Shown piece by piece: positions 626 to 61,546 of a stretch of 64,000 bases of DNA. Source of the stretch: Macrocystis pyrifera (taxonomy: Eukaryota > Sar > Phaeophyceae > Laminariales > Laminariaceae); NCBI GenBank assembly GCA_031763025.1, contig JASSKH010000029.1, forward strand, positions 7,254,263-7,318,262, in the 5' to 3' direction. The notes beneath the pieces are model-generated. The model was not told the DNA's origin. It searched no databases and saw only the letters and a program-made list of their open reading frames with translations. Position numbers and translations under genes: made by a program. Each line of letters opens with the position of its first letter. Within the stretch, counting starts at the first letter, position 1.

Positions 626-1160
626 GGGGGGGGGGGGGTGTACTCGATAGGAGAGATGTACTCGATCTCATGCATGGCCGTAGTCATATGACCATAGACC
701 CTCGCATCCCTACAATGCCGGGACGGAGCATGTCGGGTTTTCACCGACCAGGCAGACATTGCTTGCACCAAGCGCGAAGCGCCGTGAGGTGTCCGGCGAG
801 TCGCGTGAAGGGTGAGCTGCATCCTACTAAGAACCGCTTGTGAGGCGGACTTCCTTGCATATGGATGACAGCTTCAATGAGTTAGTTTAATTTCCGGTGT
901 AGCCACTTCCAGAGACAGCAATGGGAGTACTATGTAACTGCCTCTTGGGTGCCTTACCTTAAACACTACGTGATACGATCAATTCCCTTGTGCAGAATAA
1001 AGGTTCTTTATTTCGCACAAATGATCTCACTCGACAACCAACTGTGGGCGACCGCCAAGAAAAAAAAAAAAAAAAAACGGTATCCTGGATGTCTAGCTCA
1101 CGTAGTGAGCGGCATGTTTTACAGTGTCGTTGCCAACCGACGCCAACCCAACCCATATAT
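626..1160 (-). repeat. Family A element, near full length, poly(C)-ended (minus orientation)
   Basis: Begins on the plus strand with a G run (626-639), then ACTCGATAGGAGAGATGTAC, CATGCATGGCCGTAGT, the GACGGAGCATGTCGGG block, the TAAGAACCGCTTGTGAGGCG block, an A-run at 1059-1077 and a final part near GCCAACCCAACCC. The same order occurs inverted at 37640-38166, which fixes the unit at about 530 bp. No ORF is conserved between copies. Confidence 0.8.
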
Positions 1161-1165
1161 AATAT

Positions 1166-59500: not shown

Positions 59501-61546
59501 CAACTCGTCTTCCTCATCCAGAGTCGAGGCGTAGTCCCCTTCTTCGTCATACGTCGAATCCTCTTCGTCGATCATCGAGTCGTACCCGCCCTCCCGCCTA
59601 GCGTTCGCCCCTGGTGGCAAGTGGAAACCCCCGGGCGAATTTAAAAAAAAACAAAAACATGTCGTTAATAGAACAAGGGGATTTACATCGGAACGAGGGC
59701 AATCTCAAGTAGAAATCCCGGCACCACACTCCTATTTCCGATACCTGTTCATACTTCAAAGTACTCGGCCATCGAGTCGTACCCGCCCTCCCGGCTACTA
59801 TAGCATTTGCCCTTTGTGGAAACCCCTCCAAGGTGAAAAAAAAAAAAAGTGTACTACGTAAAACGGCGGGATAAAATCGTGAGTGGGGGAAAAATCGGTC
59901 AGCGTTGAGCGTGGGGCGACCAAAAGAAAGAAGGCGAGCAAATAATGCGGTGGCCTGAAAGCAACAACAAAACACAATACACACGAACGACAAGCAACAG
60001 GCAAAACCAACAACGCCATCACCACTACAAAACACCCAGCACCAGCACCACACCAACACCAACACCACCAACCACCCCAACCAGCAGTATAAACACAACA
60101 CCACAACAAACACAAAAAATAAGCAAAACAATAAAGCAAAACAATAAAGCAAAACAAACATCCAAACAAGCACGAAACAAAGAAACCACAAACAGCTAAC
60201 CACCAACTAAAGAGAACCTACGAACCAACCACTCAGTCATCTGAACCGACAAATCTAACCAACCAACGAAAAACCTAACCCGCCAGGCAACTAACAAATT
60301 CAATATTACGGGGGGCCATAGTAAATAGGACCTACGTCACAAACAAAAACCTATATACTTCCCCATTTTTACTAACAATATTTGGTCCTAATTACTATGG
60401 TCCCCCGTGATAACCGATCCAACAAACCAACCATCCAATCAACCAACCAACAACCACCATCTCCACCGCCCCCCGCCCCCTCCCTTCTGCAAGTGGCTAC
60501 ACCGGAAAATAAATCAACTCATTGACGCTGTCATCCATACGCAAGTCCGCCTCGCAAGCCGTTTATTTTATTTTATTTTTTCGGCGGTCACCACGGCTGG
60601 CGGTCGAGCTATTACGGGGGTCCGTAGTTAACGGGACCAAATTTTGTTGGTAAAAATAGGTAAATATATAGGTTTTTATGAATACCATAGGTCCTGTTAA
60701 CTATGGACCCCCGTAATAGATCATTTTTGTGCGGGGAGGACCTGAACTCCGCACAAGGGGAATTTTTCATACCACGTAGTGTGTACCTGGTATATGGTAA
60801 GGCGCCCTCGAGGCAGTTCCGTAGTAAACCCATTGCTGTTCTGTCTCTGGACGCGGCCACACCAGAAAATAAAACAATTCGCTGACGCTGTCATCCATCT
60901 GCAAGAGAGTTCGCCTCAAAAGCGATTCCTGGTAGGATGCAGGTCACCCTTCATGCGACTCGCCCAACACCACACGGCGGTTCGCGCTTGGTGCAGGCAA
61001 ATGACTGCCTGGTCGGTGAAAACTCGACGTGCTCCGTCCCGGCATTGTAGGGATGCGAGGGTCTATGGGCATACGACTACGGCCATGCATGATCATGAAT
61101 ACATCCTCCCTCCCCCCGTCTTCCCAACCACAGTCCCAAACACGCGCAAAGCAAAAAAATCCAGATCCACGAACGAACTAATCAACCATCGAACCAGCTA
61201 ACCATGCAACCAACCAACCAAAAAAAAAAAAAAAAAAAAAAAAAAAAAAAAATAAAAAAAAAAAAAAAAAAAAAAAAAAAAAAAAAAAAAAAAAAAAAAA
61301 AAAAAATCACCAACCACTCTACCGACCAATAAACCAAAAACTAACCAACCAACCAACCAACCGACGAACAAGCAAACCAGCCACACATAAGCCAACCATC
61401 TGCACCTGTCCCTCTCATGTCTGGCACCGAAGACGCCCTGGCGTGGCCGCCCCCCCCTCCCCCGCCCCTCCGCCGGGACCGACCGGCGGTGCTGCTGTTC
61501 CCGCTGCTGGGCCTGCCGCCCCTCGTGCCTCGTCGCCTCCGGCCAT
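50469..61546 (-). CDS. Gene X: acidic, Ser- and His-rich protein, seven or eight exons, unrecognised
   Basis: Exons: 61546-61406, 59610-59402, 58085-57960, about 56771-56508, 53144-53085, 52420-52322, 51841-51302 and possibly 50589-50469. Product order: Gly/Ala-rich start (MAGGDEARGAAGPAAGTA); a strongly acidic stretch with repeated DSMIDEEDSTYDEEGDY-like motifs; an Ala-rich helix; Pro/Ala-rich parts; Ser/Arg-rich segments; then a His-rich segment (HAHHHDHHRDHDSHHRQ). This looks like an intrinsically disordered, perhaps metal-binding or phosphorylated protein; no domain is recognised. Three exons need one base added or removed at a G or C run to stay in frame, while splice phases agree once that is allowed. 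Could be continuous with gene Y. Confidence 0.62.
51028..51240 (+). repeat. GACCC array between gene X exons
   Basis: Opens GGGCTGTTCAGGGGTCGAG; contains CCCGACCCGACCCGACCC and AACCCAACCC. Shorter relatives at 41995-42105, 44128-44190 and 52150-52215. Confidence 0.7.
51302..51841 (-). CDS. Gene X exon 7 (Ala/Pro/Ser-rich then His-rich)
   Basis: Acceptor ACTACGTGCAG with TATAACTATAACTAC upstream as a branch-point region. Starts [20 protein letters not shown], continues AVVAAGGSGWGELKVIRDAP, then Ser/Arg repeats. At a six-G run near 51463 the frame closes, but removing one G continues it into SAGDGGSAKDSSSASDRRHA and a run of His with Arg and Asp, ending at CCG|GTGAGA. Confidence 0.65.
51957..52020 (+). 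repeat. 64-base G tract
   Basis: 64 uninterrupted G in the intron between gene X exons 6 and 7, followed by more G/C-rich sequence to about 52090 and a short GACCC array. Confidence 0.88.
52322..52420 (-). CDS. Gene X exon 6 (DAVRERASRGGSAERGSSRR)
   Basis: Acceptor GGGAACAG, donor TAC|GTAAGC, 33 whole codons ending KTSRDVAY. Phase 0 both sides. Confidence 0.72.
52670..52858 (+). repeat. Family B copy, long form
   Basis: Same block order as 49945-50137, with CGCTCCGTCTCGAAAGGGAC and ACTACGGCAAGCAGCAAATG before a C run (52834-52857). In an intron of gene X. Confidence 0.75.
53085..53144 (-). CDS. Gene X exon 5 (APTPGMLSSGGDPAAPHHHQ)
   Basis: Twenty whole codons between a strong acceptor (TTTTCTGTTTTCCAG) and donor CAG|GTAGGA. 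Phase 0 at both ends. Confidence 0.7.
53454..53549. mobile_element. MITE family 2 (palindromic, CAGTCCCGTTTTGGG)
   Basis: About 96 bp near-perfect palindrome: TTAACCCTTTTGGTACTGCA, GTCCCGTTTTGGGAACAAAT in the left arm, inverse in the right arm, ending AAAGGGATTAA. Confidence 0.82.
55110..55208. mobile_element. MITE family 2 copy
   Basis: TTAACCCGTTTAGCACCGCA left end; GGGACTGCAGTTCTAATAAA right end. A second right-end-like piece follows to about 55250. Confidence 0.78.
56508..56771 (-). CDS. Gene X exon 4 (boundaries and frame partly uncertain)
   Basis: Begins LPIGALLEDFDSDGEGTYDD after a GCGGAG acceptor in the phase set by exon 3. After a C run near 56710 two frames are coding-like: RLRERQRRR and an Ala/Pro-rich frame (APAVAAPSRAPAPAEVVART). 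A donor TTCAG|GTGGGT closes it. The true frame needs transcript data. Confidence 0.45.
57960..58085 (-). CDS. Gene X exon 3 (DMADDFSEVSSDLSSAQPAS)
   Basis: Acceptor GCGTAACCAG, donor GAG|GTGATC, 42 whole codons. Acidic/Ser start, then an Ala-rich helix with TARANRQSQAE. Confidence 0.75.
58490..58829 (+). repeat. Family A copy followed by family B copy, ending in the giant C tract
   Basis: Family A from about 58495 (CACACCGGAAATTAAACTAA) to 58770, a short C run, then family B (GATGCGTGGTCAATGGTCAA ... ACAAATGAGTACG) which runs directly into the C tract at 58829. Confidence 0.8.
58829..59202 (+). repeat. Giant C-rich tract (about 370 bases)
   Basis: Almost pure C with a few A interruptions as (ACC) or CCA groups. 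On the minus strand it lies in an intron of gene X. The translated poly-Gly and poly-Pro frames are artefacts of composition. Confidence 0.9.
59205..59357 (+). repeat. Short family A end between two C tracts
   Basis: About 105 bp of the family A 3' part (GTACTCCGTCCCGACATTGT ... GCCATGCATGATATCGAGTA) flanked by the 373-base C-rich tract and by 45 uninterrupted C (59313-59357). Confidence 0.75.
59402..59610 (-). CDS. Gene X exon 2 (acidic repeats)
   Basis: Acceptor TGCCACCAG, donor GAG|GTAAGT, two bases plus 69 codons. Reads ANARREGGYDSMIDEEDSTY, then further Asp/Glu/Tyr/Thr repeats and EEEEEDDGDSYGDSE. Excellent splice signals at both ends. Confidence 0.78.
59565..59840 (-). repeat. Duplicated acceptor and exon start of gene X exon 2
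   Basis: 59572-59640 and 59772-59842 share ATCGAGTCGTACCCGCCCTC then GTGGAAACCCC and an A-run. Only the lower-coordinate copy keeps the CCACCAG acceptor joined to the long acidic frame; the other looks like a decayed partial exon. Confidence 0.55.
60304..60412. mobile_element. MITE family 1 copy
   Basis: TATTACGGGGGGCCATAGTA start, ACTATGGTCCCCCGTGATA end. Same length as the 47.2 kb copy. Confidence 0.82.
60610..60718. mobile_element. MITE family 1 copy inserted into a family A element
   Basis: Complete inverted-repeat ends; family A sequence lies on both sides (GGTCGAGC before, GATCATTTTTGTGCGG after), matching the uninterrupted site near 37770. Flanked by TA. Confidence 0.82.
60722..61115 (+). 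repeat. Family A element, with MITE-1 inserted just upstream
   Basis: Matches 37770-38166 and ends CATGCATGATCATGAATACA then a C-rich end. The preceding 109 bp is a complete MITE-1 copy (60610-60718), and family A sequence resumes before it (about 60560-60609), so the MITE sits inside the element. A further family A piece is at about 60490-60560. Confidence 0.75.
61220..61306 (+). repeat. Poly(A) tract with one T, in gene X intron 1
   Basis: 87 bases of A with a single interruption, flanked by CCAACCAACC repeats. Confidence 0.85.
61406..61546 (-). CDS. Gene X exon 1
   Basis: ATG at 61546 after CTTAGGCCCGAGG. GC-rich island in AT-richer flanks. Reads MAGGDEARGAAGPAAGTAAP and on to a nine-G run; beyond it the frame giving ARASSVPDMRGT ends in phase 1 at ACAG|GTGCAG, as exon 2 requires. 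One extra G in the run reconciles the two frames. Confidence 0.55.

Follow-up and report, generated by a model that had tools for sequence, protein, structure and literature searches.

A 64-kb stretch of the giant kelp Macrocystis pyrifera genome (contig JASSKH010000029.1; referred to here as the window) contains two dispersed repeat families, A and B, whose copies finish in runs of C. Family B represents the 5′-truncated ends of a long interspersed element (LINE) which encodes a reverse transcriptase (RT), and family A is, judging by its sequence, a non-autonomous retroposon of about 513 bp with a 3′ end related to that of the LINE. The RTE-like LINE and its partner, which is similar to a short interspersed element (SINE), probably insert at C runs by target-primed reverse transcription, with a C-ended RNA primed by the G strand. 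The data contain 5′ truncation, a fixed 3′ end, the C-run context, the RT of the parent element, and target-site duplications (TSDs) in family A and in single LINE copies. The role of the C run as an insertion target is strongly supported, and its origin in part as a tail contribution moderately so; the elements finish in C runs and mostly lie within existing ones, which suggests a zip-like pairing of tail and target.

Copies of the two families and the parent LINE

We searched the window by blast with the family A consensus (513 nt) and one LINE copy, and a match coming within 35 nt of the query 3′ end was counted as a copy with a fixed 3′ end. Four of the 25 rows were set aside: the T-run matches at 53366 and 61218, and inner pieces of family A at 60486 and 60562, which lie just upstream of the family A copy ending at 61092. 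The 21 copies retained lie between 657 and 61092 (Table 1); 15 belong to family A and six to family B/LINE, in line with the sequence-only reading, which had proposed 12 or more and six or more, respectively. The element 3′ ends are GAGTACA-Cn and ATGAGTACG-Cn. The longest homopolymer of the 40 nt past the element end consists of C in all 21 copies, the weakest end being that of 34707-34953, with CCC alone. The majority (19/21, including all six B copies) are 5′-truncated, and just two of the 15 A copies (657-1172 and 37641-38137) also reach the 5′ end. Both the C-run finish at a fixed end and the truncation mostly away from it, as described beforehand, are borne out. Also, in young A copies the GAGTACA end occurs twice, as GAGTACA-TCTCTCCTATC-GAGTACA (window 639-657 and the A consensus), which looks as if one element had been copied on into a second end.

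The genome searched comprises 537,376,219 bases in 223 contigs. The family B set consists of 30 loci, of 40 scored, from 449 first-look candidates; its copies extend from 62 to over 1500 bp upstream of the end, and one locus (L051/L059) runs on upstream into the RT. In 11 of the 30 the copy starts 62-69 bp from the end (L030, L031, L033, L034, L037, L045, L047, L050, L052, L053 and L056); this clustering may reflect either a favoured stopping point on the 5′ side or the smallest unit able to move, and the 88-base query could favour short copies. A protein search based on the RT gave 8173 first-look candidates, of which 114 copies were scored; the RT-matched copies are 88-95% identical, the query itself aside. 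Looking at the 3′ ends fetched for the best 20 of these 114 (query excluded), the LINE 3′ end ...GGCAAGCAACAAATGAGTAC is found in 19, with one or two mismatches over 41 nt, and was not found in the remaining copy (L108). All 19 ends read ATGAGTAC(G) followed by C-rich sequence, and 18 of them have C12 or more within 72 nt. This LINE is a partner of the kind that had been sought. Genome-wide, there are 3174 exact matches to the 21-mer of the LINE end (none for the backwards control), and CCCCCC directly follows 2247 of them (70.8%); since only exact matches are counted, these are lower bounds for the LINE family. In the remaining 29%, at least one of the six following bases is not C; where such cases were fetched, interrupted runs are among them.

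The LINE protein ends in ...NGQMTTASNK or ...NGQMTKASNK, and its stop codon TGA is followed after about five bases by the C run, which makes a very short 3′ untranslated region ending in a simple repeat. An 856-aa frame in L110 matches Pfam RVT_1 (3.2e-29), and the RT matches PDB chains of the R2 and LINE-1 ORF2 proteins (about 1e-19 to 1e-20). Concerning the region upstream of the RT, L111-L113 contain endonuclease-like pieces with WNVCGF, DIVGIQE, GDFN and TDH, which we take to be endonuclease-type motifs. The LINE copies read are broken in this part, with no uninterrupted full open reading frame among them; in L111 a fold-back stretch (838-990) breaks it up. A second LINE with long open frames was also found (L060-L089): 22 of its 30 loci (reference included) are 96-99% alike and eight about 81%, and it was probably active recently. 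These 30, fetched of the top 150 RVT_1 matches, are 20-28% identical to the B-family RT and belong to a different LINE; its 3′ end lies beyond the stretches examined, so that it does not provide a control.

The family A consensus consists of 513 nt and a C run (30 copies), with an AT-rich start and a run of about 20 T's around base 100. Family A and the LINE share a 35-nt block (29/35 identical), which is in register, at a distance of about 20 nt from the end of either element, and a B copy matches single A copies with E of about 4e-7 and 1e-7. Concerning the 5′ part, no ancestry from RNA polymerase III genes (tRNA, 5S or 7SL RNA) was found: ARAGORN (bacterial code), applied to the window and to five loci, gave no tRNA, and Rfam gave no match at gathering, with three weak unrelated matches (E up to 5); a tRNA, 5S or other RNA origin has no support from these two sources. 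A T run such as the one inside family A would stop RNA polymerase III.

C runs as targets and as possible tails

The junctions were studied in two sets. The family A set has 29 copies; 40 loci were scored and 28 of them fetched, and L001 is the window's own copy; the end and flank filters dropped the main copy of L019 and the second copies in L016 and L020, and the set excludes copies without a 5′ anchor. The B/LINE set has 28 copies, namely 27 of the 30 B loci (three ran off the sequenced stretch examined) and L110. The 40 nt ahead of the 5′ end contain a run of C6 or more in 27/29 A and 25/28 B/LINE copies (52/57 in total), compared with a background of 4.9% of 40-mers drawn at random from the window and from far flanks. 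Since a 3′ tail cannot put C runs upstream of the 5′ ends, these are targets.

A TSD with a non-C core of six or more is present in 8/29 A copies, against a mean of 1.25 and a maximum of 4 in 100 flank shuffles. Clear single TSDs are those of L001, L008, L009, L016, L044 (25 bp) and L110 (17 bp); the duplications of L044 and L110 begin inside the C run. All TSD rows of both sets were counted by the size of the non-C core, and the lengths of the 3′ and 5′ C runs were compared (Wilcoxon). Of the 18 copies with cores of four or more, 14 have the longer run on the 3′ side, three have equal runs and one has the shorter run there (p 0.0012); with cores of 2-3 the 3′ run is longer in nine of 14, equal in none and shorter in five (p 0.55); combined, it is longer in 23 of 32, equal in three and shorter in six (p 0.0056). 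Ten hand-picked clear TSDs have 5′/3′ C lengths of 6/14, 9/17, 6/13, 6/6, 5/10, 9/4, 3/3, 18/20, 7/16 and 9/18, the 3′ run being longer in seven, equal in two and shorter in one (Wilcoxon 0.031). On the full TSD counts, therefore, a tail contribution is likely, not secure.

C runs are also abundant away from the elements. The window contains 63 C/G runs of 10 or more, against a mean of 0.35 in 20 order-1 Markov sequences. Among its 56 separate C runs of this length, 15 follow an A/LINE end, six only precede an element and 35 do neither; the expectation that would have spoken against an element-bound C run, namely C runs occurring as often without the element as with it, thus holds in part. Runs past elements are weakly longer than those elsewhere in the window (median 22 vs 14, p 0.069). 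Neighbouring and nested copies occur at C runs: 8/30 B copies lie no more than 90 nt downstream of the 3′ end of a further A or B copy, a chain of A, B, C tract and A lies at 58494-59357, and 43 of the 270 runs examined, which were not sampled at random, have an element on each side. Very long tracts are present at 58829-59201 (almost pure C, about 370 bp, after a B copy) and 42543-42647 (a 105-base G run). Sequences ahead of the C runs that were left over, searched for further families with a C tail, gave 12 clusters, the largest of five; the six inspected contained no new dispersed C-tailed family, being parts of the second LINE, local repeats or matches to a palindromic repeat.

The sequence-only reading had set a C tail and a target preference side by side as alternatives. 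If target preference alone were at work, C runs would be nicked, the RNA would have no C tail, and the junction C's would come from the target and be altered by later replication slippage. We consider this unlikely, although several results fit it: the C runs in the 5′ flanks, the 35 element-free runs of the window, the marginal length difference of the runs past elements, and the TSDs with cores of 2-3. However, slippage alone should affect both sides equally, whereas with cores of four or more the excess is on the 3′ side; also, the element 3′ end stops at the same base ahead of the C's. The target thus stands firmly on the 5′ flanks, and the tail to a moderate degree on the larger cores and not on the smaller ones. 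The opposite case, a C-tailed retroposon inserting anywhere, as the A-tailed L1 mostly does, would account for the C-rich sequence past the 3′ end in every window copy and for the C6 after most exact LINE ends genome-wide, but it is already contradicted by the upstream C runs, which are beyond the reach of a 3′ tail, and by clear TSDs that start within the C run, and is very improbable. Equally hard to credit is the spread of C-flanked repeats by a DNA transposon or by recombination, without an RNA step: near-tandem arrays are common, as in the C runs flanked on both sides, but the truncation is one-sided, TSDs are present and an RT-encoding parent has the same end.

Returning to insertion at C runs by target-primed reverse transcription, the LINE would have an RT with an APE-like endonuclease, and family A would insert in the same manner. 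Judging by where the duplications start, the nick would fall on the G-rich strand of a C run and leave a free 3′ end, ...GGGG-OH, which may pair with a stretch of C's that forms, or lies close to, the 3′ terminus of the element RNA. Copying would then proceed toward the RNA 5′ end, often stopping early. As a result of such G-primed copying, the insertion would end in a C run made of target C's and probably of C's copied from the RNA, and this run could serve later copies as a landing site. That tail and target form one system, in which insertions keep and lengthen C runs as the next landing pads, feed themselves in this way and contribute to the wealth of C/G homopolymers in the kelp genome, is a tentative extension with close to even chances.

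Several points weigh against this mechanism. Permutation of the 28 B/LINE copies gave no significant TSD signal (mean core 2.96 vs 1.60, permuted maximum 3.43), many of the targets being nearly pure C. The set with cores of four or more includes the doubtful L003, L012, L014, L018, L028, L030, L036 and L045, and 8 of its 18 cores may be chance or start outside the C run; because the duplications with cores of 2-3 show no significant 3′ excess, the tail part depends on few copies. The 3′ junction has only 3-6 C in 6/29 A copies. The search queries for families A and B contained C runs, and the 3′ runs of these sets are therefore a biased sample; the RT-chosen LINE set and the 5′ flanks are unbiased with respect to the tail. 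Exact homopolymer lengths are uncertain because the assembly was built from PacBio Sequel II reads, according to the part of the assembly report concerned (PMC10498591). The match of the endonuclease part to Exo_endo_phos_2 is weak (E 0.009 to 0.05, below cut-off). Since the block shared by family A and the LINE is short, the partner of family A may be a relative of the LINE found. A conserved tail stem-loop of note is not predicted, as 64 distinct A tails gave three weak pairs and 60 distinct B tails none.

Other features of the window

The coordinates of the 21 copies are presented in Table 1. A partly palindromic repeat of about 110 bp is also present, at 60606-60722, 35875-35987, 36781-36889, 42993-43113, 47205-47314, 60304-60412 and 62876-62971, several of its copies matching in both orientations; one copy sits between pieces of a family A element. 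A reading frame with an SmpB domain (Pfam 3.4e-12) is found at 18076-18930 on the minus strand.

Table 1. Copies of families A and B in the window, C run included where it adjoins.
Feature	Position	Strand	Basis or remark
Family A, full-length	625..1172	-	C run = G 625-638; TSD CCCCCCGGTGGCT; 5′ C6, 3′ C14
Family A, 5′-truncated	11409..11505	-	blast
Family A, 5′-truncated	13526..13663	-	blast
Family A, 5′-truncated + C22	16915..16998	+	blast
Family A, 5′-truncated + C15	17319..17532	-	blast
Family B = LINE 3′ end, ~61 bp, + C20	17632..17712	-	blast
Family A, 5′-truncated	19161..19366	-	blast
Family B = LINE 3′ end, 65 bp, + C26	29844..29933	+	blast
Family A, 5′-truncated, weakest C end (CCC)	34707..34953	+	blast
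Family A, 5′-truncated, C10 a few nt further	34974..35205	+	blast
Family A, 5′-truncated + C22	37035..37200	-	blast
Family A, near full-length + C12	37641..38167	+	blast
Family A, short, + C13	42316..42376	-	directly downstream of C run of LINE copy 42382..42535
Family B = LINE 3′ end + C17	42382..42535	-	blast
Family B = LINE 3′ end, 284 bp, + C27	49827..50136	+	C16 just upstream of 5′ end
Family B = LINE 3′ end, 169 bp, + C23	52667..52857	+	blast
Family A, 5′-truncated + C7	57447..57554	+	blast
Family A, 5′-truncated + C9	58494..58771	+	starts 2 nt past a C24
Family B = LINE 3′ end	58771..59201	+	adjoins A tail; then ~370 bp almost pure C tract
Family A + C45	59205..59357	+	directly after ~370 bp C tract
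Family A, 3′ part	60718..61092	+	C-rich sequence after; inner A pieces 60486-60608, another repeat between

Comparison with known elements

In LINE-1 and Alu a T-rich primer pairs with the A tail, and the kelp case would follow the same logic in G and C. L1 and Alu are not known to have a common 3′ sequence, unlike family A and the kelp LINE. Whether simple-repeat tails in general pair with the nicked target is unsettled, and the kelp elements bear on this question; because tail and target consist of one and the same base in thousands of copies, the pairing idea is directly testable here. The kelp elements would also be a partial source for the many C/G runs of a kelp genome, which affect markers and assembly. 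What such tails do in LINEs and SINEs is a matter without general consensus, according to PMC13295347.

Among the matches listed, which cover open PMC papers only, none describes a retroposon with a C tail or with C runs as its target. The section concerned of PMC3747384 gives as 3′ repeats (A)n, (T)n, (ATT)n, (CTTT)n, (TTG)n, (TTGATG)n, (TAA)n and (TGTAA)n, with no (C)n. Poly-C together with target-primed reverse transcription occurs in PMC12809410, which in the passages concerned deals with the LINE-1 endonuclease on test substrates, and the corresponding passages of PMC2211496, on G/C tracts in Caenorhabditis, are without the words transposon or retrotransposon.

Togen, a LINE specific for (TG)n microsatellites, inserts into a simple repeat as the kelp LINE does; however, it is related to NeSL, a clade counted with those that have a restriction-like endonuclease, and a C-run target is not named in the passages on it (PMC4640811). 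The Bov-B LINE and the Sauria SINE resemble the kelp pair as an RTE-clade LINE and a SINE with a common 3′ end and microsatellite-like tails, but according to the section on them these tails differ, e.g. (CAA)n and (ACCTTT)n, and Bov-B copies are rarely flanked by a target resembling the 3′ repeat, the opposite of the kelp elements (PMC13295347). The lepidopteran RTE elements, as described in the part of PMC2887409 devoted to them, encode an endonuclease and an RT, and the stop is followed almost at once by a simple repeat, like in the kelp LINE; many 3′ partial copies lie beside the repeat, and one clone has two insertions. The repeat units named there are of 2-5 letters, unlike the C run of the kelp LINE; that part of the paper lacks the word mononucleotide and does not describe insertion into pre-existing runs of the tail repeat.

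RTEX-N1_Ec32 of Ectocarpus is a non-autonomous element of about 600 bp, the most abundant single family there, with a 5′ origin given as unknown in the portion of the paper on it (PMC12477816). Like family A, it belongs to a brown alga and has a 3′ end in common with autonomous RTE-X LINEs, RTEX-1 and RTEX-2_Ec32; the same portion of the text mentions neither a C tail nor a C-run target, and the comparison is by the description in the text. RTEX-N1_Ec32 is thus a close match to the kelp elements in plan, and the lepidopteran RTE elements are a match in tail design.

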